DNA from: a virus
DNA length: 35,913 nucleotides
Virus record (IMG/VR): IMGVR_UViG_3300035130_000084
Span: 1 to 35,913 of that record
Direction: 5' to 3' (one strand)
Shown here: positions 6,001 to 35,913 of the stretch, one piece after another
Position numbering within the stretch: the first letter of the stretch is position 1
Layout: every line of letters starts with the position of its first letter
Made by a program: the position numbers and the translations under genes
Notes under the pieces: model-generated
Told to the model about the DNA's origin: nothing
The model's input: the letters and a program-made list of their open reading frames with translations, nothing else
Database searches by the model: none

Positions 6001-9000
6001 ATCTGGCGGTCGCCCAGGTCGTAGTTGAGCTCGTTGTCCAGGAACTTCTGGATCTCGGCGGCAAACCGCCGCAGGGACATCTCGCCGGTCTGGACCGGGA
6101 ACACGAAGTCGGCCCGCCCGGTTTCCATGACCTCCGCGATCAGGTCGGCGTTGTCGTAGAGCGCCTTGAGCGTGGCCTTCTGGTCCCCCACCACGTCCGG
6201 CATCGTCAGAAGGAGCGGGGCCCCAGGGGTCTCCCCGACCGCGTTGATGAGCTCGTTGTACTTCTGGAGGATGGTGTCGAAGTCGAGGGCCTTGGCGACG
6301 GCCTCGTTCCCCTCGAGCTTCTGGCGCTTGAGGTTCGCCTTGAACAGCGAGAACGCTCCGGAGTCCACGAACACCGGGGCCTTCGGGTTGGCGGCGATCC
6401 CGCGGGCGAGCTGCTCCAGGCCCCTGTCGGACAGCTGGCCGATGTCCACGCCGACGGCCTTCCCGCGCTTCAGGGCGGCCAGGAAGTCCTTCGACCGGCT
6501 CATCCCGGAGGCGAACTTCGTTCCGTTCCGGGCCTCCGCGCTCATCGTCGGGGCCGGGGCCGGGCCCGCGAACTCGAGATCCGAGATGTTCTGCCAGGAC
6601 CGATCCCTGCGTGTCGTCCCCGTGTAGGTGGTGACAATCCGTTCGACTTGGGCCCGCTCGAAATCGTCAGAAAGGGCGAGGATCGTGCCCTGCCGCGTCC
6701 CGTTGCTCCAGCGGACCTGGTCCCCGACCTTGAACTCGCGGGTGGGCGCGGGCTCCCCGACGACCCCGCCGATTGCCTCCTGGAACTTCGAGGAGAGCAT
6801 CGTCATGGCCTGGGCGACGAGGTTCTGGCCGTTCTGGAAGTTCGCCTCGGCGTTGGCGAGCATCCCGCCGGCCACGGAGGCGACCTCGGCCATCCGCTGC
6901 CGGGCGTCCTCGCGCCGCTGCTTCCCGAACCGGGTGTTGGCGGCGTCGGCCTCCGCGCTGTGGAATTCGCTCTGGTGACCCTGGAGCTCGTCCAGCATGG
7001 CGACGAACGCATCCGGGGCCGGGTTCTCGGGGGTGTCGTACTCGGAGTCCGGCACCCACTTCACGTCAGACGGCTCCAGCCCCACCGTCTTCAGGAAGTC
7101 AGCTGTCTCCTCGCCCTCGACCGGCTCCTCGGGCTCGACTGCGGGGGCCTCCTCGGGGATCTCGTCCTTGATCTCGGCCACCTTCACTTCGGGCGGGAGC
7201 TCCATGTCCGCGGGCGGGTCCGTGTTCGCCATCGGCATCAGGACGGCGACCGGGATCTCGTCCGGGTCACGGTAGGCGGTGATCTGCCCCGCGGCCCCCA
7301 CCTGTTCGCCCACGCCGGGCGCGGCCTCCCACCGGAGATTCTTGCCCTGGGTGGAGAGGATGTGCGCGTACAGGCGCGACTGGACCGGGACGAGCTTGTC
7401 GCCTTCGGTGCGGAACCACACGAGCCCCGGCATCGCGGGGACGCCCTCGCCGCGCTTCTGCGCCGGGGTGAAAGCGTAGGGCTCGATGGTGATGGACTCT
7501 TCCTTCGTCGCGGCCAGGACGTGGTCGATGGCCTCGGGCTCGAGCTTCGTGACGTAGGCCCCCTCGGGGAAGGTCATCTCGCCCCGGACGAGGAAGTGCC
7601 CGTCGCTGTAGTGGGGGACGCCGGTCCCGGACACGCCCTCCAGGATGCGGTCCTGAGCGAGGGACTTCGGGGTGATCTTCCGCGCCCTCAGCTTCGACAC
7701 CGGGTAGCGGGCGTTCTCCCCGATGATGTCGCCCTTTTCGCGCTTGGTGCGCTCCTTCTTGGCCTTCTTCTTCGCCACCGACTCGAACGCATCCAGGGCC
7801 GCGTCGGCGGTCTTGTAGGTGGTGCCGGTCACGCCGGGGAGGGTCCAGTAGTCCTTCTCCCGGTTGTAGGAGAGGGTCAGGGCCCGGACGTTGTCGCCGG
7901 TGCCCCGGACCAGGGTGAAGTGCCGCTCGCGGTTGCCCTTCCCGTACCACTTCCGCTCGGTGACCCGGTAGCCGCGCTTGACCGCGGTCGGGAGGTCCTC
8001 GTCGTACTTCCCGCCCTTCTGGATCTTCTCGATGTCGACGTTCGTCTCGTAGCCCTTCGGGTACTGCTTGTTCCCCTTCGGAACGAAGACCCGCGCCCGG
8101 ACGCGCCCGCCCTCCAGCTCGAACACCTCCCGGACGGTGGCGTCCTGGGTGCGCCCGAACGGGGCCGGGACCTGGACCTCGTCGCCGGCCCTGATCCCGC
8201 TGTGCTCCTCGAGCGTCTTCCGTCCGGGGATGGCCGCCTCTGCCTCCTCGCGGGCCTGCTCGATGGCGGTCTTGATCCCGGTGAGCCGGGCCCGGGGGGC
8301 CTGGAGCTCGGGATCGGCCACGTCCTTCGGGAGATCCCGGACGAGCTTCGTGATGTCGCCGCGGTAGTTCCGGGCGATAGCCATGATCCCGTCGTCGCCG
8401 GTGACCGGGACCTTGAGCCACCCGGCCAGCCGCTTCGCGTCGTCGTGGGTCCAGGACTTCCCGCCCAGCTTGTAGAGGTCGGCGTGCCGGCGGTCCGGGA
8501 AGACCACCTTCGCCTGGCCGTGGACTCCGCGCCCCACCCACCGGGTCCGGTCCGGGAGCGGCTCGGGCCGTCCCGACACGGGAGCCAGGTCCGCGGCGGG
8601 CGCTGCCGCCGGGGCCGGGGCGGCGGGGGCCTCCTCCTTGCCCATCGCCGCCAGCATCCGCTTCCGGAGCTCCTCCTGCTCCGCTGCGGACTTCGCCGCG
8701 ATCTCGCGCTCCTGCTCGACCGTGGTGCCGAACTGCGCCGCCCTCCGCCTGATCTGCTCCTCGGCCTGGAACTCGGGGGCATACTCCTCGAGGAGGGGGA
8801 ACCCGAACAGGGGCTGCACCGCGGCCCGGAAGCGGTTGGTGTCCTTCCCGCCGGTGGCCTGGAGGACGGCCCGGTAGGGCGACTTGCCCTCGTAGAGGAG
8901 CTTCTCGACGTCGGCCAGCCAGGCGTTCGCGTTCTTCTCGAGGGGGACCGAATCCCTCCAGAACCAGCGGTCGTCTCGCCGCCCGGCCCCGACGTTCTGG

Positions 9001-11594
9001 GCCACCGTGGTGGTCAGGGCCTTCGTGATCTCCTTGACCTCTGGCTTCAGGGTCTTCACACCCGCGGCGTCCTCGGTGTAGGGGATATCGAAAGCCAGGT
9101 CCGGGAGGGCCCGCAGCTGCTCCGCTCGCTCCTTCGATCCCAGCTCCGCTCGCTCCTCGTCGGTGAGCCTCGCGGGCGGCGCGGTCTTGACCGGCTTGCG
9201 GACCCCGGTTTCCTTGGCCTCGGCCAGGTCCGGGAACAGCTTCTTCCAGCCGTCGTTGATCGGAACCCCCATCTGGCGGGCGTTCATCAGGGTCCGGTAG
9301 AGGGCCGGGGCCTCGCCGTGCTTGCCGGCGTCGTACCACTCCCTCGTGATCTCGATGGAGTCCTCGGTGGGCCAGTCGTAGGCCCCCGGGGGGTTGATGA
9401 CCGTCTCGTACTCGTCCTCGGAGAGCTTCACCGACCGCTCGGCCTTCCGGTTGGCCTTCAGCATCTGCTGACGGTCCTGGAGGGCGGCCTTGGCGTCCTT
9501 CTTCGTGGCGAAGTCCTCGGCCTCCGTGATCTGACCGCCCCGGTCGAACAGGCGCAGCCGCCAGGTCCCGTCCTTGTTCCGGACCACGTCCCCCCGCACG
9601 GGGGGAAGCTCGGCGCGGGCCGGGGGCTCCTCCTCGGGCTCGGCTCGGACCGCCGGGCTGATCGGCGGGATCGCCGCGGGCGGCGCGGGCGCGGGCGCGG
9701 GCGCAGGGGGGCCCAGGGGGGCCGGGGCGGGGCCCCGGGGCCCGATGGGGGCCGGGTAGGCTGTGGTGGGCGCTCCGGGCTCTGTGGGCGGCGCAGGGGG
9801 CCGCACCGGCCTCCCGGCGGTCGTCACCCCTGCCGCGCCGGGAGCGGGCACCACGGGCGTCGTGGCGGGCTCTCCGGGGACTGTGGGGGCCTCCCCCCTG
9901 ACCACTTCCCCGCCGGGGACCGGCTCGATGGGGCGACCAGCTGCCGCGGCCTCGGCCCGGGCGAGGAGGTCGTCCACCTCGGGCCTGGCCCCCGCGGCTC
10001 GGGCCGCTGCCGCCTCGGTGGGTGGGACGCCGGCCTCGGCGGGCGGCTCGGGCTCTCCGGTGACCCTGGTTCCGGCCCGTGGCCCGGGCGGGGCCTCGCC
10101 GGGCTGCATCCCGCGAGCGGCCATCCACGCCGCCAGGGCCTCGTCGGGGGTCTCGAACGGGGTCCCTTCCGGGATCGTCTCGATCTCGCGCACCGCCGGC
10201 GGCTCATAGGGGCGTCGCCCGCTCTCACCCTCGACCCATTGGAGGTTCCCGTCCTCGTCCACCAGGAACCCACCCTTCCCCTCCTCGGGGGGCTTCGCGG
10301 GGCTCTCGTGGGCGTGGGATCGGCCCGGCTGCCGCAGCTGGGACTCGATGGAGGCGATCACGGCGTCCAGGCGGGCCATTTCGGCGGGATCGGCCATCCC
10401 GAACTCGTCGCCGGCCTCTCTCGCCGCCCGGAGCTCCTGGAGGAGCTGGCGCAGCTGCGCGTCGGACGCCTCCTGGGCCTCGGGCGGGAGCCCCTCGCGC
10501 TCCGCAGGGGTCGGCTCCGCGGCCCGGGGGCGGGTGGTCCGGACGAGGGCCTCGGCCAGGGCGGTGCGGGCCTGGGCCAGCTTGGCGACCTCCTGCATGT
10601 CTCCCGCGGCCTCCGCGGCGATCATGCGTGCGTCGAGGTCGGCCAGGGCGTCCAGCTGGGCCTTGATGGCGCGGAGCTCGGTGGCTCGGGACCCCTCGGC
10701 CCCCGGGAGCTCGGCGTCCACCTGTTCACGGAGGGTGCGGAGCTCCTCCCGCGAGAGCCGCCCCAGGCGGCCCAGCTCCTCGGGAGTCATCCGTCCCGAA
10801 GGCGGGGGAGTTCCAGCGTCACCAGAAGGGGGTTCACCGGCACCGCCGGGCTCCCCGCGCCCTCGAGCTCGTCTGATGGCCCGGGCCCCGGAGACGATGG
10901 GGAGGGCCAGGAGGGCGGCATCGACCCCCGCCTCTGCGGCCTTCTCAGAGACGGCGGGGCTCCAGCCCTCCTTTCGGTACAGGTCGTAGGCTTCCCCGGT
11001 GGCGTCGTAGGTGGCCTTCGCCATCGCCGCGCCGAATCCGAGGTTGACCGCCGTGCCCAGGCCCGGGAGCTTCGCCAGGGCCCCGCCGCCCAGCATGAGG
11101 GCCAGGTTGGTCGGGTCGGCGCTCATGTCCACCACGCGACCGACGACGCCGCGGGCCAGGGCCTTCGCGTGCTGCGTCCCCGCGGACTCCCCGGGTTCCG
11201 GTCGCCCGACGTAGGCGTCCTTGGCGAGCTCCGAAGCCGACACGGGGCGCTCGGTGGGCGGGGCGGCTGTGGGCGGGATCGACTCGTCCCGATACCAGGA
11301 CTCCGGGTCCTGCTGCATCCACCGCGCCGCCTTCTCCCGGAGCGGCTGGGTCGCCATCAGGTTCACCGGGAGGTCCACGAGGTTCGACCGGAGGGACTCC
11401 TGCATCGACCCCAGGGCCGACAGGAGGTTCTCGATCTTCCCGGCCTCCTCCTCCTGGGTCACCCCGGGGGCGGGCGGGACGTAGTCCGGGATCGGTCCGG
11501 TCCCGATCTGCTCGTACCGGTTCCGGAGGCGGTCGATGTACTCCTGGAGTCTCGCGGACGGCTCGGGCAGTCCGAACGGGCGGTCGGTCGCCAT
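1..11594 (-). CDS. Giant phage polyvalent protein (TGT/DpdA-like, SNF2/Strawberry-notch helicase, ART and JAB-like domains), 3' end outside window
   Basis: The frame opens with ATG (MATDRPFGLPEP) directly after the previous stop and shows no stop to the window edge, giving at least 3,864 codons. Visible regions: a helical, Ala/Gly-rich N-terminus (about 1-250); a Pro/Ala linker (565-665); a region with KVVFPDRRHADLYKLGG (about 1020-1095) of a type I recall from other polyvalent proteins; a TGT/DpdA-like TIM barrel (about 1715-1935: VDSGAFS, MPDVVGD, FPVQTGE, LGIPAN, LHFLGA); a superfamily 2 helicase (about 2590-3060: Walker A GTGVGKT with Lys 2632, DEAH 2728-2731, LLSTATPG, GGTGINLDD, QAAGRSHR); an ADP-ribosyltransferase-like domain (about 3345-3505: YHGT, YGPGIYVTDNP, WVILDPK); and the start of a JAB/RadC-like domain (from 3820: FTLEDLGALAQVARS). 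Its position after the tail genes fits an ejected internal protein; an anti-restriction role like DarB is inference. Two inner stretches look coding in another frame, so this could be two genes. Confidence 0.88.
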   Translation of the reverse strand, partial: MATDRPFGLPEPSARLQEYIDRLRNRYEQIGTGPIPDYVPPAPGVTQEEEAGKIENLLSALGSMQESLRSNLVDLPVNLMATQPLREKAARWMQQDPESWYRDESIPPTAAPPTERPVSASELAKDAYVGRPEPGESAGTQHAKALARGVVGRVVDMSADPTNLALMLGGGALAKLPGLGTAVNLGFGAAMAKATYDATGEAYDLYRKEGWSPAVSEKAAEAGVDAALLALPIVSGARAIRRARGRGEPGGAGEPPSGDAGTPPPSGRMTPEELGRLGRLSREELRTLREQVDAELPGAEGSRATELRAIKAQLDALADLDARMIAAEAAGDMQEVAKLAQARTALAEALVRTTRPRAAEPTPAEREGLPPEAQEASDAQLRQLLQELRAAREAGDEFGMADPAEMARLDAVIASIESQLRQPGRSHAHESPAKPPEEGKGGFLVDEDGNLQWVEGESGRRPYEPPAVREIETIPEGTPFETPDEALAAWMAARGMQPGEAPPGPRAGTRVTGEPEPPAEAGVPPTEAAAARAAGARPEVDDLLARAEAAAAGRPIEPVPGGEVVRGEAPTVPGEPATTPVVPAPGAAGVTTAGRPVRPPAPPTEPGAPTTAYPAPIGPRGPAPAPLGPPAPAPAPAPPAAIPPISPAVRAEPEEEPPARAELPPVRGDVVRNKDGTWRLRLFDRGGQITEAEDFATKKDAKAALQDRQQMLKANRKAERSVKLSEDEYETVINPPGAYDWPTEDSIEITREWYDAGKHGEAPALYRTLMNARQMGVPINDGWKKLFPDLAEAKETGVRKPVKTAPPARLTDEERAELGSKERAEQLRALPDLAFDIPYTEDAAGVKTLKPEVKEITKALTTTVAQNVGAGRRDDRWFWRDSVPLEKNANAWLADVEKLLYEGKSPYRAVLQATGGKDTNRFRAAVQPLFGFPLLEEYAPEFQAEEQIRRRAAQFGTTVEQEREIAAKSAAEQEELRKRMLAAMGKEEAPAAPAPAAAPAADLAPVSGRPEPLPDRTRWVGRGVHGQAKVVFPDRRHADLYKLGGKSWTHDDAKRLAGWLKVPVTGDDGIMAIARNYRGDITKLVRDLPKDVADPELQAPRARLTGIKTAIEQAREEAEAAIPGRKTLEEHSGIRAGDEVQVPAPFGRTQDATVREVFELEGGRVRARVFVPKGNKQYPKGYETNVDIEKIQKGGKYDEDLPTAVKRGYRVTERKWYGKGNRERHFTLVRGTGDNVRALTLSYNREKDYWTLPGVTGTTYKTADAALDAFESVAKKKAKKERTKREKGDIIGENARYPVSKLRARKITPKSLAQDRILEGVSGTGVPHYSDGHFLVRGEMTFPEGAYVTKLEPEAIDHVLAATKEESITIEPYAFTPAQKRGEGVPAMPGLVWFRTEGDKLVPVQSRLYAHILSTQGKNLRWEAAPGVGEQVGAAGQITAYRDPDEIPVAVLMPMANTDPPADMELPPEVKVAEIKDEIPEEAPAVEPEEPVEGEETADFLKTVGLEPSDVKWVPDSEYDTPENPAPDAFVAMLDELQGHQSEFHSAEADAANTRFGKQRREDARQRMAEVASVAGGMLANAEANFQNGQNLVAQAMTMLSSKFQEAIGGVVGEPAPTREFKVGDQVRWSNGTRQGTILALSDDFERAQVERIVTTYTGTTRRDRSWQNISDLEFAGPAPAPTMSAEARNGTKFASGMSRSKDFLAALKRGKAVGVDIGQLSDRGLEQLARGIAANPKAPVFVDSGAFSLFKANLKRQKLEGNEAVAKALDFDTILQKYNELINAVGETPGAPLLLTMPDVVGDQKATLKALYDNADLIAEVMETGRADFVFPVQTGEMSLRRFAAEIQKFLDNELNYDLGDRQIILGIPANAQAAPREQVFMLAQYLVSEHNGARLHFLGATSAARLDPVLSAAQEGAGNALEWSADANQLRSKLKPGVTRPEAMAEVLEEEEPVAPAEDIEPDLKANREAAGPFLEVVESYISELRKADPPAGDAWLLPRFGPKDARFDDTYGTKLGDRGFVPGRVENPAAKNIPGAPKYLDNWMDALDQIRDALNKAGWRADERDREYGALPMDRATFYKDGWHLFIRLQGDKPPIVQFAPDEQRPGAPQEVRGIGDQALSEQQEAALGRWIKKNMAGASEAQVTEAQEAARQHFNANRKLRAAESNKDFTYKLKPGPGQPKSWITQQRKLARAELTNAQVLSRVTKDRLRKAAPKAFKSLLLIAEDRMPRERMPKRDAVIPEVAQLMRGMEQHPQASTIVIETLGPRTLEYAKTAVVEEASVAEDLQRRVERALERKATPKELKEAFAKDAEGVGEKGVAAALKKGPDHPAWKRILKYNVEKTKQMRGLEEALLEDGATQGLLMDEKVVAELQTLAEAMARELDELPEEENPLLPWDLTNPETNEPVTARDALAAMQSQQGRLYARIVHKYTDNAAAEEADDVPFDVPGVTDDDDIPKFEAPDKKPPRSVLSMPLGKKAVRQAQLGLDFGPPKTVDRPKVDSQTPGREGTASRPKPGGVPGLAGRPPAGVAGGERPGRDDASGGGGQPAPGQVGGAPQRQARPSKGIFDVITVRSEFTERSPAHLELIPEALLKHLDPHQQIGVGKAIHAMNTDQRGFYLADGTGVGKTREILATAHYWLKQGKKVLVIAPANVLNIPKSGPRKGQITGSFKDDSEAMGIPIVYQRVKRKDVEAPALIPGKVNLGTYEFIDKQPVDEDTVLVLDEAHYVKNATSTRGLAGQEKLDKAHAVLLSTATPGDQAHHLRYLKRIGFLEGKTENEQLRALGMTSFDMPTKGGKVVVWKPRSRKLMKKRLRELMQRLAAGGRTIKREIDFSGVPVNFVELPVPPDVQEELDKVAAAWPAGEDEPPQNRRMRLMHQRRQLEPGKIPYLKRRVQEELAQGRKVIIFAQRVRYSAVVKRSKVWVGGEQVTVEDLITATEGTILQFEEWMEEQGIKFSRIHGEAKNKFDEMEKFQRGETDVVVATVESGGTGINLDDRKGDAPRTMIFLTAPLESNVFVQAAGRSHRLPTRSVSNIEVLIADHEVDNWNKNIIATKIALQGALVSGAVKKLDPELAEQMDEFGTPVVANDPTKSQTQKEEDAKELPSRQSVLGSLRSLSTWQGRTSNPKAIVSLKQYDYLRKKLGELGANVDRYGDFTIDTREFEQPGYQPVRGTLVKPKGASNRDRGWVNGEMSYEEDIPKFEEPYQPIEAGGVLGQFIRAEGDEVLMESFQGNRLIANSKDVTPVELNQLPEHERQLVLADTRGFFDPKTGNPTATSMEFRERISLIDAEIDKYEAERSAQVWRKSEDVIAGMALAERIAQLERARSELIDHEYRVTPPGPPQGIVYHGTRESGFERFDPERFDKDALYGPGIYVTDNPVLANEYTRGGPGVIGGLVGERAGIYPIRVTVDEDRVLDMDADRAPEHLVARAVRDGFVERRETGLSVDDIYQALISKRGDAGFANEWLRAAGYDVLTYLGGQRMGYAGIDHRAWVILDPKLARGAYTRTRLAAPGRKKVRLLRGVEDLIRDLPKYESFRSWPQRHRDTLDLLFGEDAGLFQELLGATSAANTVAGNVSLALKAYFQLRKGEPFRGYMKGVVENLERIREEEGVRGPKLDPYTRALMGDMSQVWVDRHVARFFFGRKALKDGMTPSKAQRELAEEAMRQAAEELGWQNAEVTSAIWGAQQIQEGLSEEEINDYATVLQQHADAVRRFVSYFGTEARASGRSYEILGHPPVGEGEDRLREGDYQGGHRATAEDQLEAVAAVDSVRTPLYIPDVVGAGRSLRAADNPEWGYLGSVIAADFARDWRVNWVGKHVFTLEDLGALAQVARSTALEQAHILLVKNGRIVHSIQSGS
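295..410 (-). other. Segment of the giant gene that looks coding in another frame (compensated frameshift candidate)
   Basis: Here the giant frame reads a low-quality stretch (SYEILGHPPVGEGEDRL) with many A/T third positions. The frame shifted by one base reads a normal polar helix (DALTRYSDILRLAKEKID, then SGKVTTKAGTEPPQ) with G/C at most third positions. On both sides the giant frame is again the G/C-third frame. This looks like a +1 shift near 410 undone near 300. Natural compensated indels and sequencing or assembly errors both explain it. Confidence 0.5.
3821..4063 (-). other. Alternate-frame ORF inside the giant gene (nested gene, gene boundary or compensated frameshift)
   Basis: A GTG-started 80-codon frame. 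Its first 57 or so codons read like a real acidic helical protein (VKELPADPSREEFLGW, DDLQREWLEANDPDE, SPRLDKWVELHNARL) with G/C at nearly every third position. The giant frame over the same bases is a Gly/Pro/Arg linker with many A-ending codons. The last 20 or so codons turn Ser/Pro-rich where the giant frame regains G/C third positions. An in-frame TAG at 4082-4084 precedes it, and a promoter-like element (4071-4099) ends 7 bases before the GTG. It could be a nested gene, the true start of a separate helicase gene, or a pair of indels. Confidence 0.45.
4071..4099 (-). promoter_or_regulatory. Promoter-like element TTGACA-17-CAAACT
   Basis: On the minus strand TTGACA (4099-4094) is followed after exactly 17 bases by CAAACTCCA. 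The same two blocks with the same 17-base spacing occur in front of the lipoprotein at 34394-34366, and I noticed no other TTGACA on the minus strand. The -10 hexamer matches TATAAT at only three of six positions, so a host sigma-70 assignment is weak; the shared motif is the main argument. Transcription would start within a few bases of the GTG at 4063, giving an almost leaderless message. Confidence 0.4.
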
Positions 11595-16112: not shown

Positions 16113-18329
16113 TCAGCAGGAGCCCCCGGGATCGCTAATCGTGATCGGGACTTCTTTCCACGCCCCGCACGCCGCCTCGGCTGGCGTTTCGGGCTGGTCG
16201 ACGTAGCCGATCAGGCGTGCCACCCAGTCGGTCCGCTCCCGGAAGAGGGCGCACGTCAGTTCGGCCTCGGTGATGAAGAGGGCCGGCGTGACGCCGCCGC
16301 TGGACGCGACCACCTTGCCGGTATCCGGGTTGCGGATCTCGAGCGCCCACCAGTTCGCCCCGGCACTCCCGTTGTCCAGGTCGATCCCGACGACGGTGGC
16401 GAGCCCGCCGGCGAGCGGATAGTCGAGCGGCCCGGCGACCACCTGGATGTCCACCGCGCCGTTGTTGCAGAGCGCCTCGTCCCGCGGCGGCTTGTGCGCG
16501 GGCCCGGGCGACCACATCCCGCCGACCCCGCGGTACTTCACGCCCACCGGCTCGAGGACCTGGACCTCGAACGTGAACCCGCGCCCGACGACCTGTTCGG
16601 GCAGCATGTAGTGGACCGCCTTCGCGCAGTATTCGTAGGCGTACACGGAGCCGTCCGGGCGCGTCCTGGTCTGCACCTCGGCGCTGGCCTCGTGGTCGGC
16701 CTTCCAGAAGTGACGCTCGTTGTCGGGCCGCACGGAGTCCCAGGTGTCCTCGTCGCCGCCCATCGCGTAGAACGTCCAGGGCACCAGCTCGGACTCCATG
16801 TGGGCCCACACCTGGTCGAGCCGCTTCCCGCTCTGGATGTCGTCGCCGGGCTGCTGAAACAGGAGGTGCGAGTGTCGGGCGATCATCTTCTTCTGGACCG
16901 TGTCGCCGTCGTCGTCCCCGCCGTACTGGGTCGGGGAGAACGGCGGGGCCATCAGGGCGTCGTCGCGTGCGGACGCGAGCTCGCACGGCTTGATCTGCCT
17001 TCGGATCTGTCCGTCGCAGGACGCGATGTAGAGCTCGTTCCCTGTCGTCCCGCCGTTGACGGACCCGCCGTAGAACGACGAGGAGTCCTGCCGCCCGCGG
17101 AAGTCGAAGGTCCAGTCGGGCTGGAGCTCCTGGCCGTTCATCGACGGCTCGAACTCGCCCAGGTACCCCACCCAGATCACGGTCTTCGGGTAGATGTCGG
17201 TCTTCGGTTCCCACTCCGCGGGCTCGTCCCCGTCCGCGATGGTCGGGGCCTGGAACAGCATGTAGACCTTGTTGAGCTTGTCGTAGACGGCGAAGGAGTC
17301 CTCGAGCGACTCCCGGTCCTTGCAATACTCGTCCTCGAACTTGAGCCGCATGTCGTCCAGGACGTAGCGGAACGAGCCGTCGTAGATCCACACCCCGTCC
17401 CGGGCCGCGAACCAGAGCCGGTTGTGGATCTCCTTGATCGTGTGATGGCTCAGGCACCCGACGTTCGAGTCGAGCCGCTCGATGACGAAGTCGTTGTTCC
17501 CCTGGCCGAACTGCCGGATCATGTACGAGTTGTCCTGGCAGAAGACGACGAGCTCGTTCCGGCCCCGCCACATCCCGGTGATCGTCTCCTTCTCGAGGGT
17601 GTCGAGGAAGAACGAGCTCCCGACGTACTGCGGGTAGCCCGGCTTCGAGTACCAGATCCGGTAGGGGAACTCGGCGTTGTTGGCGTACCACATCCGCTGC
17701 GCCCAGGGGTGGATGTAGCGAATGCCCAGCGGCGGGATGTCGTTGTTGAAGTCGTTGGGCCCCTGCAGCGAAAGCCGGGACGTTCGGACGTTCTCGGAGA
17801 CTGCGGTCACCCCGTAGGGGGCCTCCCACGCCATCCGGTAGGCGGCCCCGTTCATCGAGACGTAGCCGCGGACGTGAGTCACGCGGGCCTCGGCGAAGGT
17901 CGCCTGGATGTTGCTCCAGTCCCGGCCCTCTCCGGAGAGGGTGCCGACGTCCACGATGTTCGACGGGTTCGACTCGCAGATCACCCGGTTGCCCTCCTTG
18001 TGGAGGAAGGTGATGTAGGCCAGGCAGTCGCCGCTCGAGCCCCCGCCTCCGGTCCCGGGGGCGACCGACACGGCGTCCTGGGGCGGCTTGATCCCGGCCA
18101 GGACCCAGGAGCGGTCGGTCATGTGCCGGACGAGGACGCGACTGAACGATCCGGCGAGGTAGATGTCGCCGCGGAAGTTCTCGAAGACGGGCCGGTATCC
18201 CGTGCGGAACACTCCCTGGTCGGAGAGCGACTTGTAGGTGGCCCCGCCGACACCAGAGGTGTTGGCGATGATGGTCGACTCGCCGCCCCCGCCGTCTACG
18301 AGCTCCTGGACGTAGATGATTGTGGGCAC
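16113..18329 (-). CDS. Beta-propeller-like tail protein (nozzle / tail tubular protein B type), 738 aa
   Basis: A GTG start at 18329 follows a GAGGAG site that overlaps the end of the upstream gene. The protein is rich in beta strands and aromatic residues, with propeller-like blades such as HPWAQRMWYANNAEFPYRIW, GMWRGRNELVVFCQDNSYMI and LWFAARDGVWIYDGSFRY. This is the look of podovirus nozzle/stabilisation proteins (T7 gp12-like) and fits its place after the adaptor. The C-terminal third (from about residue 480) may be a separate beta domain. The last residues include several cysteines. Family assignment is by fold appearance and gene order, not a sequence match. Confidence 0.75.
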   Translation of the reverse strand: MPTIIYVQELVDGGGGESTIIANTSGVGGATYKSLSDQGVFRTGYRPVFENFRGDIYLAGSFSRVLVRHMTDRSWVLAGIKPPQDAVSVAPGTGGGGSSGDCLAYITFLHKEGNRVICESNPSNIVDVGTLSGEGRDWSNIQATFAEARVTHVRGYVSMNGAAYRMAWEAPYGVTAVSENVRTSRLSLQGPNDFNNDIPPLGIRYIHPWAQRMWYANNAEFPYRIWYSKPGYPQYVGSSFFLDTLEKETITGMWRGRNELVVFCQDNSYMIRQFGQGNNDFVIERLDSNVGCLSHHTIKEIHNRLWFAARDGVWIYDGSFRYVLDDMRLKFEDEYCKDRESLEDSFAVYDKLNKVYMLFQAPTIADGDEPAEWEPKTDIYPKTVIWVGYLGEFEPSMNGQELQPDWTFDFRGRQDSSSFYGGSVNGGTTGNELYIASCDGQIRRQIKPCELASARDDALMAPPFSPTQYGGDDDGDTVQKKMIARHSHLLFQQPGDDIQSGKRLDQVWAHMESELVPWTFYAMGGDEDTWDSVRPDNERHFWKADHEASAEVQTRTRPDGSVYAYEYCAKAVHYMLPEQVVGRGFTFEVQVLEPVGVKYRGVGGMWSPGPAHKPPRDEALCNNGAVDIQVVAGPLDYPLAGGLATVVGIDLDNGSAGANWWALEIRNPDTGKVVASSGGVTPALFITEAELTCALFRERTDWVARLIGYVDQPETPAEAACGAWKEVPITISDPGGSC

Positions 18330-18330
18330 C

Positions 18331-19962
18331 TCAGAGCTCCTCGTCGTTGAGCACGATGTCCTCCGGGGCGACGATCAGGGCCTGATTCCCCACGTCGGGA
18401 CCGATCTCGAGCGGGATGGGGTTGTAGTAGGTGGCGCGGAGCTGGTTGCCCGAGAGGTCGCCCCATTCCGTCACCTCAGCGATGATCTCTTTCTCGTTGA
18501 ACTGCCCCTGGCCGATGTCGCTCTCGATCCAGACCCCACCAAAGAACGTGCGTCCCTTCGCTGTGACCAGGACCCAGCGGAGCTCGGCCCCGAAGTCCTG
18601 GTACCAGTTGATGGGGAGGGGGTATCGGAACCAGTTCGTGCCGTCACCGCCGCCCGTTTCGCGCCAGACGTGCCAGTTGCCCGAGCCCAAAAACGCGGGC
18701 CTGAAGATGACGACGAAGAGGTGCCCGGACCTGGAGAAGAAAAGCCCGCCCGCGGTTTCCGTCGGGTTGCCTGTGAACTCGTACCGGAACGTGACGTTTC
18801 CCCCACCGACCGCCGTGAACATCCTGGCCCCGGCCCACCCGGAACCGGAGGGGATGCTCGAGATGATGAAGACCTTCCCGGCGTAGGAGTAGAGGTCGTT
18901 GACGTTCAGGACGTAGGGCACGGTGCGAGCCGTCCAGGACCCGCCCACCCCGTCCAGGTGGTAGGCCACGGTCGAGGTGCTGGCCACGTCAGTTCCAATG
19001 GCGTAGACCCCGATCTCGTTCACCGTGGCCAGGCGAAGCTGGTGGGGGCTCCCCACGTCCAGGCTCTCCTGGACCGTGGTGCCGTCGAAGTCGAAGACCT
19101 TCCCATCGTGCCGGGAAATGAACAGGTGCTCCTTGATCCGCTCGTCGCCGCTGATCGGGTCATCGTTGCGTCCGAAGACGGTCACCATGTCCCTGACCGC
19201 CTCGCCGTCGGCGTCGAAGTTCGTGATCTGCCAGAGGTCCTGGTACAGCGTGTAGTCCGCGAACGGAGTCTCCTCGTCCTCCGGGAGCTTCACCTCCCAC
19301 AGGCACGCCCAGGTCTGCAGCGCAGTCGGATCGAGCTCGTTCGGGTTCTCTGGGTCGAGTCGCACCCGGGTCCCGACATGGAGGAGCCGCTTGCGGTACT
19401 TGATGAGGGCCGTGTAGGTGTGCTTGAGCGGGCTGTAGCCGATCCTGGGCTCGGGGTTCTCTACGGCGGTGGGAAGCCCAAAGACCCCGGTGCTGGGCGG
19501 GTCGTAGAGGGTGAGGTCGTTGTAGCGCCGGAAGTCGGCCCGCTGGTTCGAGCGGGAGGCAAACGGGCTTTCGTAGGTTCCGGTCTTCGTCTCGTTCAGG
19601 TTGGCGAGGATCGCGTTGAAGTTGTAGGTGGCGCTCCCGTCCGATGGAGTCAGCCAGAGCCCCACGCCGACCTCGTCAATCTCGATCATCCCCGTGATGC
19701 ACCCCTCGCCCGCCTCGGACGTGTGCTCGGGGAGCAGGCCGGGACGGTCGATCATCCCCGCGGGGGTCAGGCGCACGTTGGTGAGGAGGTGGAACTGATC
19801 GTCCGGGATCGAGGCCGGGTCCGCGGAGCGGTTCATCCCTCGGAGCCTCTTGAACTCGGCCCCGGGCCGGATCTCGAACGGGGCTACGCCCTGGTCAGGG
19901 GTTCGGCGTGGCATCTCGAGAGCTCCAAGGAGAAGCAGTCCGACGACGAGTAGGTGTCGCAT
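18331..19962 (-). CDS. Beta-rich tail protein (propeller-type), 543 aa
   Basis: Sequence such as FHLLTNVRLTPAGMIDRPGL, KYRKRLLHVGTRVRLDPENP and HLFISRHDGKVFDFDGTTVQ has repeated beta blades typical of podovirus tail-nozzle proteins, like its downstream neighbour. The ATG at 19962 adds a short hydrophobic leader (MRHLLVVGLLLLGALE). A second ATG at 19914 (MPRRTPDQGVAPF) has GGAG 8 bases upstream and gives a soluble start, which I consider at least as likely. The stop lies one base before the next GTG. It probably acts with the next gene in the tail tube or nozzle. Confidence 0.75.
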   Translation of the reverse strand: MRHLLVVGLLLLGALEMPRRTPDQGVAPFEIRPGAEFKRLRGMNRSADPASIPDDQFHLLTNVRLTPAGMIDRPGLLPEHTSEAGEGCITGMIEIDEVGVGLWLTPSDGSATYNFNAILANLNETKTGTYESPFASRSNQRADFRRYNDLTLYDPPSTGVFGLPTAVENPEPRIGYSPLKHTYTALIKYRKRLLHVGTRVRLDPENPNELDPTALQTWACLWEVKLPEDEETPFADYTLYQDLWQITNFDADGEAVRDMVTVFGRNDDPISGDERIKEHLFISRHDGKVFDFDGTTVQESLDVGSPHQLRLATVNEIGVYAIGTDVASTSTVAYHLDGVGGSWTARTVPYVLNVNDLYSYAGKVFIISSIPSGSGWAGARMFTAVGGGNVTFRYEFTGNPTETAGGLFFSRSGHLFVVIFRPAFLGSGNWHVWRETGGGDGTNWFRYPLPINWYQDFGAELRWVLVTAKGRTFFGGVWIESDIGQGQFNEKEIIAEVTEWGDLSGNQLRATYYNPIPLEIGPDVGNQALIVAPEDIVLNDEEL

Positions 19963-30463: not shown

Positions 30464-30721
30464 CTACTCGATCTCCACCTTGTCCTTCGGGCGCACCGGG
30501 TCGGGCTCGTAGCCCGGGAAGTACGACGGGCGCTGCCCCCGAAGGCCCGTGTGCGTCTTCGGCTCCACGGGTCGTGGCCCCCTTTCGGCCTTGTCCACTC
30601 GCCAGGCCGCGCCGGGGTCCGCGAGCTCGAGGAGCCGCTTCTGTGCCTTTTCGAGCTGCTCCCGCAGGAACTGGAGCTCGCCGTCCTTCGCCCGGCACGC
30701 CCGGCACTCGAACAGAGCCAT
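30464..30721 (-). CDS. Small CxxC coiled-coil protein, 85 aa
   Basis: The ATG at 30721 shares its A with the TGA of the large terminase. The sequence starts MALFECRACRAKDGELQFLR, with a CxxC knuckle, then a charged helix (EQLEKAQKRLLELADPGA), then a Pro/Lys-rich tail ending DKVEIE. Its stop directly precedes the portal ATG. A small zinc or redox motif plus a helix might dock the terminase or portal; no family is recognised. Confidence 0.65.
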   Translation of the reverse strand: MALFECRACRAKDGELQFLREQLEKAQKRLLELADPGAAWRVDKAERGPRPVEPKTHTGLRGQRPSYFPGYEPDPVRPKDKVEIE

Positions 30722-32277
30722 CAGATACCCCCTCCCGACATGACCTCGCGGCCCTCGCGCTGGCGCTGCTGGTGCTTGATCTTCTCGTTGATCTTGCCCC
30801 GGAGCTCGTGCCACAGGAGCTCGCGGTTGTTCGTCGGCCTCAAGTTCCGCTTCTCCCGCTCCGTGAGGTTCTCGTGGGCCCAGCCCTTCGGCATGAGGTA
30901 CTCGATGGCCTGGACCATCGCGTCCACCGTGTCGTCGTGGGCTCCGTGCGGGAACTGCGCCGCCTCGTCCACCAGGACCGAGGAGTACGACCGGTTGCGG
31001 GGCAGAAAGACCTGGCCGCGCTCGATGATGGCGCTCACCGAGTTGACGCCCCAGGTGAGCCGCACCTCCTTCGACCGGGACCTCGTCCCCACCGGGACGA
31101 TCCCCTGCATCTCCCGTTGAAGGATCTGCATGATGGCGAAGCCGGACGCCGAACGCTCGATCAGCTTGAACTTGGCCTGCGGCCACAGCTCGGTCATCGC
31201 CCGGATGGCCCGGAGGGTGTCCGGGGTGTTCATCCGCTGCCGCACGGCGTCGAGGTAGTAGAACTCGTTGCCGCGCCGGCCCCAGACCTGGCCGACCACG
31301 AAGTCCGAGGTGTCGGCGTCATCGAACGTCGGGTCCCAGGACTGGATGATCTGCTCGCATTGCTGCGCGATGACGGACGGGTCCTCGTCGTACCACTTCC
31401 ACCAGAGCCTCTGGATCGCCGCGCCCTCGGGGGCGGTGGGCCGCTGCTGGTAGAGGGCGTTGAAGGCCCGCGAGCCGACCTCGGCCTTCTTCGTCTCCAG
31501 GGCGAGCTCGTCGAAGCGTTCCGTCCAGAGCGCCTGGCCGGGGGACCGGCCCAGGACGTCCTCGTCCTCGGCGATGGCGGGGAAGTTGATGATGTCCCAC
31601 AGCTTCGCCTCCGGGCTGGCGAGGATGCGCCCGGCCAGGTCGTCCTCGTGCCACCGGGTGAGGATCAACACGATGACGGCTTCCCGGCCCTGGTGGTCCG
31701 GATCGGTACGGGTCAGGAAGACCTTGGTCCACCACTCCCAGAGGTTCTCGCGGATGACCGCGCTGTTGGCCTCCTCCGCGTTCTTGATCGGGTCGTCCAG
31801 GATGAGGACGTTGCCGCCGCGCCCGGTAACCGGGCCTCCCACGCCGGCGGTCACCATCCCGCCCCCCGCCGAGGTCTCCCAGCGGTTCGCCGCCCTGGAG
31901 TCGTCCAGGATGCGGGCCCCCAGGAGGGGGTAGTGCTCCTGCACGGAGCGGCGGGCCTTGCGTCCCCAGCTCGCCGCGTAGCTGGCCTCGTAGGACGCCA
32001 GGATCACCTTGTGCCTGGGGTCCAGGGCCAGGAGCCAGACCGGGAGCCAATGGCTGCAGAGCTCCGACTTCCCGTGGCGCGGCGGCATCGTGACCATGAG
32101 CCGGCGCTTCCCGCCCGGGGGCCTCGAGACGAGCTCGACCAGCTTGTTGGAAAGGTGGTGGAGGTGCGGGGCGTAGTCGTACTGGTTGGGCATCCCGTCC
32201 GTGGCCGTGATCGCCAGAGCCAGGGGGCTCAGGAGATGGGCGAACTCGGCCTCGGGGAGCTCAGCCGGTCTGCTCAT
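30721..32277 (-). CDS. terL: Terminase large subunit, 518 aa
   Basis: Packaging ATPase-nuclease. Residues 60-80 hold the Walker A-type motif MPPRHGKSEL, with the Walker B VLILDDP about 90 residues later and the coupling motif LILTRWHEDD after it. The nuclease half has QSWDPTFDD (first Asp), then NSYSSVLVDEA-type middle sequence and HDDTVDAMVQAIEYL near the end (catalytic Asp pair). Length is normal. The start overlaps the upstream gene by 17 bases. It pairs with the adjacent small-terminase candidate and acts at the portal. Confidence 0.93.
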   Translation of the reverse strand: MSRPAELPEAEFAHLLSPLALAITATDGMPNQYDYAPHLHHLSNKLVELVSRPPGGKRRLMVTMPPRHGKSELCSHWLPVWLLALDPRHKVILASYEASYAASWGRKARRSVQEHYPLLGARILDDSRAANRWETSAGGGMVTAGVGGPVTGRGGNVLILDDPIKNAEEANSAVIRENLWEWWTKVFLTRTDPDHQGREAVIVLILTRWHEDDLAGRILASPEAKLWDIINFPAIAEDEDVLGRSPGQALWTERFDELALETKKAEVGSRAFNALYQQRPTAPEGAAIQRLWWKWYDEDPSVIAQQCEQIIQSWDPTFDDADTSDFVVGQVWGRRGNEFYYLDAVRQRMNTPDTLRAIRAMTELWPQAKFKLIERSASGFAIMQILQREMQGIVPVGTRSRSKEVRLTWGVNSVSAIIERGQVFLPRNRSYSSVLVDEAAQFPHGAHDDTVDAMVQAIEYLMPKGWAHENLTEREKRNLRPTNNRELLWHELRGKINEKIKHQQRQREGREVMSGGGI

Positions 32278-33012: not shown

Positions 33013-33133
33013 GGAGCTTCTCCCAATCGCGGCGCAGCCAGAGGCCACACTTCTCGCATCGGGCCTTGAAGGTCCCGTTGTCCTGCGCCACGAGCTCCAG
33101 GGAATGCTCTCCGTCAGCGCACACCTTCGGCAT
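32975..33133 (-). CDS. Zinc-ribbon-like small protein, 52 aa, with duplicated C-terminal tail
   Basis: The ATG at 33133 is a TGATG overlap with the lipoprotein gene. The sequence MPKVCADGEHSLELVAQDNG continues with FKARCEKCGLWLRRDWEK, so one Cys, one His and a CxxC could hold a zinc ion. The last residues (ANAPTYAKGER) nearly copy the end of the lipoprotein before it (ANAPTYAEGER), so the gene shares a duplicated tail. Function unknown. Confidence 0.6.
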   Translation of the reverse strand: MPKVCADGEHSLELVAQDNGTFKARCEKCGLWLRRDWEKLRANAPTYAKGER

Positions 33134-33170
33134 CAACGCTCTCCTTCCGCGTAGGTGGGCGCGTTCGCGC
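33125..33170. repeat. Direct repeat, copy B
   Basis: Partner of copy A, 158 bp away, 45 of 46 bases the same. Protein similarity extends a little farther upstream (RWETFCANAPTY against DWEKLRANAPTY). Confidence 0.85.
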
Positions 33171-34320
33171 AGAACGTCTCCCACCGTCCCCGACAGTCAC
33201 TCTGGGCGGGGTTCCCCCTGTAGGGCGGGTACGGCTCGCCGTTGCACTTCCACTTCTGGTCGCACAGCTCGGCCTCGCAGATCGGCCTGAGCGGGTCCCC
33301 GTCCCCCCGCACCGGGCAGCCGCCCCGCGGCACGCACCCCGGGGAGCCACAGGTGTTTGGGGGGTTGCCCGTTCCAGGCATACAGCAGTATCCGATGGAG
33401 GCGCAGAAGTCGGGCTGGTTGATCGTGACCCATGTGCAATCGAGGATTCCGTTGTGCTCGCGGCACTTGAACTGCATCCGTGCGGTGTCCGGGTGCGGCT
33501 CCGGGCAGTCACCAGATGGAGGCGGGGTTGGGGGAGGTGTAGGGCCCGGGCCACCGCCGCACGCCGAGGGGTCGTTCAGTTTCCAGGCGGGTCGGTCGGC
33601 GTTGGGTGACCAGATCACCTTCCCGCCGCCGTAGTTGTAGACCTTGTAGCCCTCCCACCAGCCGTCGCAGCGAGCGGCCACCGCGATCTCGTCAGTCCCG
33701 CCTGGAGTCGTGTCGATGTGCCTGCCGGCGCACAGCCCCGTGGTCTTGACGGCCTCGATCACGGCGTGCATCCACTCGTCGGGCTCCATCCCGGTGCGAC
33801 AGTCGGTCCCGATGTCGCAGCCGGTGAGCTCGCGCATGGCGGTGTTCACCGTGGGGGCGTAGTTCCGCATGACCGGGCCCATGGTCAGGTTCTGCTCCTG
33901 GCCCTGGGGGAACGAGCAACCCTCGTCGGGCTCGCAGGGGTTCCAGGTCTGCCCGAAGTAGCAGTCGCACGCCTGGCTCTGTGGCCGGAAGGTCCCGCCC
34001 CTATCGGTGAAGGTGGGGCATTGGGGCTCCGGAAGCGGCTCGCCGCCGTCGCACTTCGGGGCCTCCTCGCAATGCCGCGGGTCCTGGCTCGGGTTGTGGA
34101 CGCACGGGCTCTCGACGCTCGAGCATTGCTGGGGCGGCTCCTCGTGGCACCACTTGTAGCCCTGGTCGAGGAGCTCCTGGCACTGCTCTGTGTGCGGGGG
34201 TGTCGGCTGCGGAGTCGGTGTCGGCTGCGGGCCCGGTCCGGGGCCGCCGGGACAGGCGGGGAGGGTGAGGACTCCGAGGATGACGAACGGAAGAACAGAC
34301 TGTCCGTCTAGACTCTTCAT
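33133..34320 (-). CDS. Cysteine-rich lipoprotein, 395 aa, first gene of the late operon
   Basis: ATG 34320 with GGAGGG upstream. The N-terminus has a charged residue, a hydrophobic run and a lipobox (VLPFVILGVLTLPAC), so it should be exported and lipid-anchored. A Pro/Thr linker (PQPTPTPQPTPP) follows. The exported part holds about 30 cysteines in many short spacings, likely disulfide-rich. A central part (TGLCAGRHIDTTPGGTDEIA, YKVYNYGGGKVIWSPN) looks like a folded domain. As a phage product made first in this operon, a surface role such as superinfection exclusion, receptor masking or virion-associated lipoprotein is possible. I do not recognise the family. Confidence 0.75.
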   Translation of the reverse strand: MKSLDGQSVLPFVILGVLTLPACPGGPGPGPQPTPTPQPTPPHTEQCQELLDQGYKWCHEEPPQQCSSVESPCVHNPSQDPRHCEEAPKCDGGEPLPEPQCPTFTDRGGTFRPQSQACDCYFGQTWNPCEPDEGCSFPQGQEQNLTMGPVMRNYAPTVNTAMRELTGCDIGTDCRTGMEPDEWMHAVIEAVKTTGLCAGRHIDTTPGGTDEIAVAARCDGWWEGYKVYNYGGGKVIWSPNADRPAWKLNDPSACGGGPGPTPPPTPPPSGDCPEPHPDTARMQFKCREHNGILDCTWVTINQPDFCASIGYCCMPGTGNPPNTCGSPGCVPRGGCPVRGDGDPLRPICEAELCDQKWKCNGEPYPPYRGNPAQSDCRGRWETFCANAPTYAEGER

Positions 34321-34365
34321 CTCATTCTACCCTCCGATTCAGAGACGGACGTCTCGCTCCGGTGG

Positions 34366-34394
34366 AGTTTGCCCCTACACGGGAAGCGTGTCAA
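34366..34394 (-). promoter_or_regulatory. Promoter-like element for the late minus-strand operon
   Basis: TTGACA (34394-34389), then 17 bases, then CAAACTCCA. It lies about 46 bases upstream of the lipoprotein ATG and shares its two blocks and spacing with 4099-4071. The -10 block is poor for sigma-70, so a phage-encoded or alternative factor is possible. Confidence 0.45.
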
Positions 34395-34411
34395 CAACAA
34401 CCGTTGACACG
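34387..34411. promoter_or_regulatory. Inverted repeat (operator candidate) between divergent operons
   Basis: Perfect 9-bp arms (CGTGTCAAC and GTTGACACG) separated by 7 bases. Each arm contains the TTGACA of one of the two divergent promoter-like elements, so a dimeric repressor bound here could block both directions at once. Confidence 0.6.
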
Positions 34412-34432
34412 AGCGCACGCCTTTGATACGTT
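34404..34432 (+). promoter_or_regulatory. Promoter-like element for the recombination operon
   Basis: TTGACA, 17-base spacer, then TACGTT. The predicted start of transcription falls at about 34439-34440, next to the ATG at 34441. No Shine-Dalgarno is seen before that ATG, so translation may be leaderless. Confidence 0.45.
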
Positions 34433-34440
34433 GCGCGGGC

Positions 34441-34803
34441 ATGGCAGCCAAGAAGACGCGCCCGAGTCGGGCCACGGTGATCGAGGAGGTTTCGGACGCC
34501 GATGCGAACAAGGCCAGCTACGAGCTGGTCCGGCGTCGCCAGGGGGCCAAGCCCTCAGCCGCTGCCTCCGAAGCCGCACGCCTGATGCAGCAGCGCCGCT
34601 CCGCTCAACAGACGGTCGAGGAGCGGTCGGAGATGATGCGGAAGGCGGCGACGGCCTACTGGAAACGACTGACTCCAGCCCAGCGCAAGCTGGAGGCCCG
34701 CAAGCGTGCGAAGAAGCGGGCAGCCAACCGCCGGGCCCGCATTCGGGCAAAGCTCAAAGGGGGTAGTGGTGGGAGAGATTCCGGAGCCGGGGGCCTACGC
34801 TGA
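34441..34803 (+). CDS. Small basic helical protein, 120 aa
   Basis: I choose ATG 34441 (MAAKKTRPSRATVIEEVSDA) over an upstream TTG. The protein is almost all Ala, Arg, Lys and Glu, with a helical core (ELVRRRQGAKPSAAASEAAR, MRKAATAYWKRLTPAQRKLE) and a strongly basic C-terminus (RKRAKKRAANRRARIRAKLK). It may bind nucleic acid; the YWKRLTPAQRK piece faintly recalls an HMG-box helix but is not enough for a call. First gene of the recET-type operon and overlapping the exonuclease start by 35 bases. It could be an early regulator or DNA-binding protein. Confidence 0.65.
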   Translation: MAAKKTRPSRATVIEEVSDADANKASYELVRRRQGAKPSAAASEAARLMQQRRSAQQTVEERSEMMRKAATAYWKRLTPAQRKLEARKRAKKRAANRRARIRAKLKGGSGGRDSGAGGLR

Positions 34804-35608
34804 CGTTTCGTTCGACGACTACGCGGCCTGGCCGGCAGTAAACCACTCCATCCTGCGCCACTTCCGGAAGACGGCGGCGCACGTTCGGCACGAGATGGAG
34901 AGCCAGGACGAGTCCTCGAAGCACCAGGAGCTCGGGCGGGCGGTCCACACCGCCGTGCTCGAGCCCGGCAACTTCGAGAGCGAGTTCGTCGTCAAGCCCA
35001 AGATGGACCGGCGCACCAAGGCGGGGAAGGCCGCCTGGGCCATCTTCGAGAAAGAGGCCGGGGGCAGGAGAATCCTCACCGAGGAGGAGTGGGCGGTCTG
35101 CGAGGGCATCATGCGGTCCATCGAGAAGCACCCGACCGCCCGGGCCTTCCTCCGCGGCAAGGGGGTCAACGAGCTGTCCCTCCTGTGGCGGGACCAGGAG
35201 TTCGACCTCCTCTGCAAGGCCCGCCTGGACCGGCTCCTGATCTTCGAGGGGCACCCGTACATCCTCGACGTGAAGACGATGCACAAGCCCGCGTCCACGC
35301 ACGCCTTCCAGGTGTCCGTGGAGTCGTACCAGTACCACTCCCAGGGGGCCTTCTACCTCCGGGGGGCCCAGCAGCTGCAGCCCGCCGAGCGCCGCTTCGC
35401 CTGGCTGGCCTGCGAGACGGAGCCGCCGCACCTCGTTCGCCTGTTCGATGCTGACGACGAGGCGCTCAAGATCGGGGCCGACGAGGTGGCCTCGTGGCTC
35501 CAGAGGTTCAAGGAATGCACGGAATCCGGTACGTGGCCGGGCTGGGGAGACGGAATGGATATCGCCGGGCTCCCTCCGTGGGTGATGAAGCGGTTCAATA
35601 TTGAGTGA
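34769..35608 (+). CDS. RecE/YqaJ-like PD-(D/E)XK exonuclease, 279 aa
   Basis: A likely 5'-to-3' exonuclease that makes single strands for the annealing protein next to it. The family pattern is seen in order: LGRAVHTAVLEPGNF (the conserved His helix), LLCKARLDRLLIFEGHPYIL with a first Asp, then LDVKTMHKPAS (Asp-x-Lys), and the YQYHSQGAFYLRGAQQ helix, as in the PDDEXK_12/RecE C-terminal (DUF3799) group. GTG at 34766 or 34769 follows AAAGGGGG; I prefer the latter for spacing. The RecT-like gene follows after 11 bases. Confidence 0.88.
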   Translation: MGEIPEPGAYADVSFDDYAAWPAVNHSILRHFRKTAAHVRHEMESQDESSKHQELGRAVHTAVLEPGNFESEFVVKPKMDRRTKAGKAAWAIFEKEAGGRRILTEEEWAVCEGIMRSIEKHPTARAFLRGKGVNELSLLWRDQEFDLLCKARLDRLLIFEGHPYILDVKTMHKPASTHAFQVSVESYQYHSQGAFYLRGAQQLQPAERRFAWLACETEPPHLVRLFDADDEALKIGADEVASWLQRFKECTESGTWPGWGDGMDIAGLPPWVMKRFNIE

Positions 35609-35619
35609 GAGAGGCTCAG

Positions 35620-35913
35620 ATGTCAGAGAACAAGGGGGACAAGACCCTCCAACGGGTTGAAGTAGCCGACAAGGATATGGTCTTCACCGACCGGGGGGTC
35701 CGGCTGGACTCGCCGGCGGCGGCGGTGAACTTCGCCAAGTGGTGCTACGAATCGGGCTATCTGCCCGAACACATCAAGAACGCCAAGCAGGCGTTCGCCA
35801 TCCTCGCCCGGGGGGCCGAGCTGGGGCTCTCGCCCTTCGCCTCCTGGCGCTTCGTCTACATGACCAAGGGGGGCCGGCTGGCCCTGGAGACGGAGGGGGC
35901 CCTGGCCGTCTGC
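35620..35913 (+). CDS. recT: RecT-like single-strand annealing protein, 5' part (98 codons in window)
   Basis: ATG 35620 after GAGAGAGG. The first 40 residues are polar (MSENKGDKTLQRVEVADKDM). Then comes the RecT-type region AFAILARGAELGLSPFASWR with VYMTKGGRLALETEGAL, where a helix with GxELGL is followed by a beta strand pair. It is the usual partner of the RecE-type exonuclease just upstream. The frame is open at the window edge, so length and C-terminus are unknown. Confidence 0.82.
   Translation, partial: MSENKGDKTLQRVEVADKDMVFTDRGVRLDSPAAAVNFAKWCYESGYLPEHIKNAKQAFAILARGAELGLSPFASWRFVYMTKGGRLALETEGALAVC

Follow-up and report, generated by a model that had tools for sequence, protein, structure and literature searches.

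Back-to-back -35 elements as the best reading of a palindrome between the late and recombination operons of an uncultured phage

A perfect palindrome between two divergent phage operons raises the question of whether it is an operator or a consequence of the promoters on either side of it. The palindrome CGTGTCAAC-N7-GTTGACACG (34387 to 34411, with no strand of its own) lies in IMG/VR virus record IMGVR_UViG_3300035130_000084, a 35,913-bp stretch from an uncultured phage group that was analyzed in full (here, the window). It is sited within a 120-bp divergent intergenic gap, with a leftward packaging/structural operon on one side and a rightward exonuclease/RecT operon on the other. All nine bases of each arm (34387 to 34395 and 34403 to 34411) are paired across a 7-nt loop, AACAACC. 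The initial annotation assigned to each 9-bp arm the -35-like hexamer of one direction, and this is exact: TTGACA is found at 34404 to 34409 on the plus strand and at 34394 to 34389 on the minus strand, with 9 bp between the hexamers.

The same annotation took the gap to part a late operon from a recombination operon, which the gene content bears out, with terminase and virion genes to the left, an exonuclease to the right, and RecT-like genes following in relatives L002 and L003. Codon-usage gene calls to the left of the gap are all leftward. The first late gene (33133 to 34320, minus strand) encodes a 395-amino-acid cysteine-rich protein with an N terminus that looks lipoprotein-like by eye, and a Shine-Dalgarno-like GGAGGG can be read upstream of it (34330 to 34335, minus strand). 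The terminase large subunit is encoded at 30721 to 32277 (minus strand; phrog_38, E value of 1.1e-105), and further products of the late operon include head-tail adaptor-like, major-head-like, and internal-virion-like proteins. An open frame of more than 3,860 codons (3 to 11594, minus strand) continues past the left end of the record. On the right, the first early open reading frame (ORF) (34441 to 34803, plus strand) encodes a strongly basic protein of 120 amino acids, which has no family match at an E value of 0.001 and shows short similarity in L003 and L012. It is followed by a gene for an exonuclease VIII-like PD-(D/E)XK protein (DUF3799; 34706 to 35608, plus strand), for which the codon-usage caller prefers a later start at 34766. 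The window stops shortly beyond the exonuclease; the next genes in L002 and L003 encode RecT-like and replication-initiation-like proteins.

Judged from their sequence, the two arms are likely the -35 elements of opposite promoters. The late -35 element (TTGACA, 34389 to 34394, minus strand) is kept in L002, L003, L013, and L022. It is paired over a 17-bp spacer (18 bp in L002) with a -10-like CAAACT of the SAMACT type (34366 to 34371, minus strand), and the late start is predicted at about 34359. The counterparts in the relatives are TTGACA-18-CAAACT (L002), TTGACA-18-GACACT (L003 and L022), and TTGACA-18-GAAACT (L013). The pattern TTGACA-16/19-SAMACT, in which the SAMACT motif was picked after viewing these same sequences, matches four of the six relative records, once each; every match lies in the gap that precedes the late operon, and the control gave one match. 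TTGACA-17-CAAACT also occurs at position 4099 (minus strand) within a giant leftward gene of the window, and the late motif is thus not unique to promoter positions.

The early -35 element (TTGACA, 34404 to 34409, plus strand) is kept in L002, L003, and L012 and is followed, after a 17-bp spacer, by a -10 element, TACGTT, of the TANNNT type (34427 to 34432, plus strand), with a predicted start at about 34439 to 34441. The relatives have TTGACA-18-TAGATT (L003), TTGACA-18-TAGAAT (L012), and, by eye, TTGACC-18-TAGTCT (L016). TTGACA-16/19-TANNNT matches the early start in three of the six relative records, and four other matches occur in those records. Because the ATG lies only 14 bp past the first T of the -10 element, the first early mRNA is probably leaderless. 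The distance from the -10 element to the ATG is 7 bp in L003, 8 bp in L012, and 5 bp in L016, and PMC3160421 describes TANNNT some 12 bp ahead of the start codon as the signature of leaderless genes in high-GC bacteria. Two side observations concern the record of L012. At 5920 to 5960 of L012 (minus strand), GCTAGCG repeats stand on either side of the early -35 element. The same record (G002) holds two more TTGACA promoter-like matches ending in GTAACGT (17247 to 17274 and 19522 to 19550), one of which contains ACGTTAC-N3-GTAACGT across its -10 element, a possible operator family.

Neither window promoter was called in a simple sigma-70 scan. Both -10 hexamers, which stand 17 bp from their -35 elements, agree with TATAAT at only three of six positions; the same types recur in relatives. 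With the terminase as query, 35 loci were found in species genomes, and no host can be named because the best match has 46% identity and the loci come from several phyla. A DNA search with positions 34300 to 35913 gave no match in phage records, and terminase relatives in the phage collection have less than 60% identity in all 2,220 records.

The poor -10 elements bear on a reading with a single real promoter, the second TTGACA being a decayed copy or there by chance. It would also fit L012, where the late -35 element is TTGACT, and the pattern search, which found no SAMACT late promoter in L012 or L016. Against it, TTGACA occurs only three times on both strands of the entire window, two of these in the palindrome, and the facing pair recurs in L003, whose terminase is 64% identical to that of the window. 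We regard a single working promoter as improbable.

How much of the symmetry exceeds what the hexamers impose? Two TTGACA elements that face away from each other across 9 bp are bound to form an inverted repeat. In the window, four perfect inverted repeats have arms of at least 9 bp and loops of up to 10 nt, compared with a mean of 3.6 (range, 0 to 11) in 40 dinucleotide shuffles; a 9-bp palindrome as such is not unusual in this GC-rich DNA. Within the 120-bp gap it is unusual, such a repeat arising in 19 of 4,000 shuffles. With the hexamers held fixed, the arms reached 9 bp in 523 of 20,000 shuffles (2.6%) and at least 8 bp in 1,816 of 20,000, and most of the palindrome signal therefore comes from the hexamers. 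The symmetry beyond them is a weak excess, which gives some slight scope for selection on symmetry. ACACG/CGTGT half-sites occur three times around the late -35 element (34377 to 34381, 34387 to 34391, and 34407 to 34411), in steps of 10 and 20 bp.

Comparison with relatives shows what has been kept. The opposite-strand -35 elements share one intergenic gap in the window and again in L002 and L003; the facing TGTCAA/TTGACA pair is thus present in three of seven records, the window included, and was not found in the records of L012, L013, L016, and L022. In L002, whose proteins are 98% identical to those of the window, both arms are unchanged, and one loop base and one base of the late spacer differ; these two changes are too few to weigh. 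In L003 (exonuclease identity, 55%), both hexamers are kept in the same gap, 8 bp apart, and the symmetric arms have shrunk to TGTCAAG/CTTGACA, with the outer arm bases changed. The early promoter of L012 has its late TTGACT counterpart 21 bp away. L013 and L022 have the late promoter upstream of late genes without a facing TTGACA; another ORF takes the divergent position there, and neither locus yielded an exonuclease relative. The bases outside TTGACA (TTGACACG) also occur at promoters that have no facing TTGACA, namely, the early promoter of L012 and the late promoter of L022. Because relatives keep the promoters while the spacing and the outer arms change, we favor reading the palindrome as a by-product of a pair of consensus -35 elements that stand back to back.

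Among 80 exonuclease loci, base-by-base comparison was limited to the close relatives in the records of L002, L003, L012, and L016; a scan for facing hexamers alone covered seven that are farther removed, with matches in one, L095. The first late gene has relatives at nine loci. In L299, L300, and L304, the cysteine-rich protein is 48 to 56% identical and no divergent exonuclease operon adjoins it; no facing TTGACA pair was found near this gene, nor an exonuclease relative at a convincing E value, and these loci tip the balance neither way. L302 and L303 were left out, their records starting inside the first late gene.

The same comparisons bear on the operator reading, in which a phage or host dimer would bind both arms and block, or rearrange, both promoters together. 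The perfect 9-bp arms do surround both -35 elements, one inner and two outer base pairs go beyond what the hexamers dictate (p of about 0.026), and the arms of L002 are unchanged while its loop changed, though with only the two changes in the gap. Operators are also plausible in this region, since the L003 gap has other palindromes, one in each promoter spacer: ACCACAA-4-TTGTGGT in the late spacer (5595 to 5612) and a perfect 18-bp palindrome, TACGCTGGCGCCAGCGTA, in the early spacer (5632 to 5649). These would be better operator candidates than the palindrome of the window; the 18-bp palindrome has no second copy with up to three mismatches in the 66,782-bp L003 record. Several results argue against a dimer. 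The initial annotation had called for a search for further copies, and the site proved single in the window at up to three mismatches (shuffle mean, 0.02), the window being a fragment with most of the right arm outside it; operators usually, though not universally, have additional copies. The outer arms and the spacing are not preserved in L003, four relatives lack the facing pair, the outer bases accompany promoters without it, and no regulator gene was identified among the proteins scanned.

We also searched viral contigs for GTGTCAAC-5/10-GTTGACAC, alongside a control palindrome. The search returned 63 stretches, which reduce to 51 distinct sites once duplicates are removed, and the control returned 33 stretches and 23 distinct sites. 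Loop lengths at the 51 sites are spread over 5 to 10 nt, with no favored spacing. Sites outside ORFs of 100 codons number 13 of 51, versus 12 of 23 for the control, by a criterion that is blunt in GC-rich DNA (a true relative, L263, in the record of L002, was counted inside an ORF), and 6 of 51 sites look divergent, versus 1 of 23. An operator common to phages was rejected, as none was found among the 51 viral sites. The earlier proposal that one dimer switches both operons is thus left unsupported by the unkept outer arms and spacing, the single copy, and the lack of a preferred spacing across viral contigs. We consider a dimer operator unlikely, and a more specific version, in which the first early protein (34441 to 34803) or a host factor covers both -35 elements and either holds both genome arms silent or turns early into late expression, somewhat less likely still. 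If it were true, the back-to-back pair would be a two-operon switch worked by one site.

A 9-bp stem with a 7-nt loop could in principle form an RNA or DNA hairpin, as in a terminator, a cruciform, or a replication or packaging signal. Among the relatives, this stem is kept in L002 only, and we give such a function very little credence. The terminator or hairpin reading was rejected, since transcription from either predicted start would begin downstream of the site and the scan gave no terminator call at it.

We think it probable that the palindrome marks where two divergent sigma-70-type promoters overlap and that the two compete for RNA polymerase. The rightward TTGACA-17-TACGTT would drive the small basic protein, exonuclease VIII, and, by analogy with relatives, RecT and replication proteins, and the leftward TTGACA-17-CAAACT would drive the lipoprotein-like gene, terminase, and virion genes; we infer from the sequence that both are in use. 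Counted from the predicted early start, the late -35 element falls at about -50 to -45. That region is inside the usual footprint of RNA polymerase. Because the hexamers are 9 bp apart and the predicted starts about 80 bp apart, a polymerase on one promoter would cover the -35 element of the other, and two polymerases should not fit together. Such occlusion may make the pair an exclusive switch, open to one direction at a time. Having the better -10 element, the early promoter would take the first turn; the late promoter, whose -10 element is poor, would fire after the early promoter is turned off or with the help of an activator.

Overlapping divergent promoters are a known kind, of which the window pair would be a member with its -35 elements back to back. 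The PR/PRM promoters of phage lambda are likewise divergent, with about 80 bp between their starts, and show the polymerase interference proposed for the window. Three CI/Cro operators lie between the lambda promoters, whereas no operators are shown here, and one side of the window pair leads into a late structural operon rather than a repressor gene. Divergent promoters that share DNA exclude each other, as described in PMC12825309 and PMC4207663. The Pc/Pr pair of plasmid pLS20, as presented in the latter, likewise has overlapping divergent promoters, mutual exclusion of polymerases, and one transcription unit on each side of the switch, with exclusion in the window being our reading. It differs in that its -35 and -10 boxes coincide and Rco binds surrounding repeated motifs, whereas the window has -35 elements 9 bp apart and no regulator site was found. 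In bidirectional promoters of Escherichia coli, according to PMC12825309, symmetry accompanies two-way transcription and a second polymerase is sterically excluded, as would be the case in the window. There, the -10 element is shared and the starts are mostly 10 to 23 bp apart, whereas here the -35 elements carry the symmetry and about 80 bp separate the predicted starts. A strict bidirectional promoter with a shared -10 element (PMC12825309) was set aside, the two -10 elements of the window being separate (34427 to 34432 and 34366 to 34371).

Our analysis provides a likely pair of early and late promoters for a group of uncultured phages, with a natural series of -35 distances (8, 9, and 21 bp). 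It also carries a caution, in that facing consensus -35 elements always resemble an operator. If occlusion is real, exclusivity of early and late transcription would be achieved simply, without a repressor.
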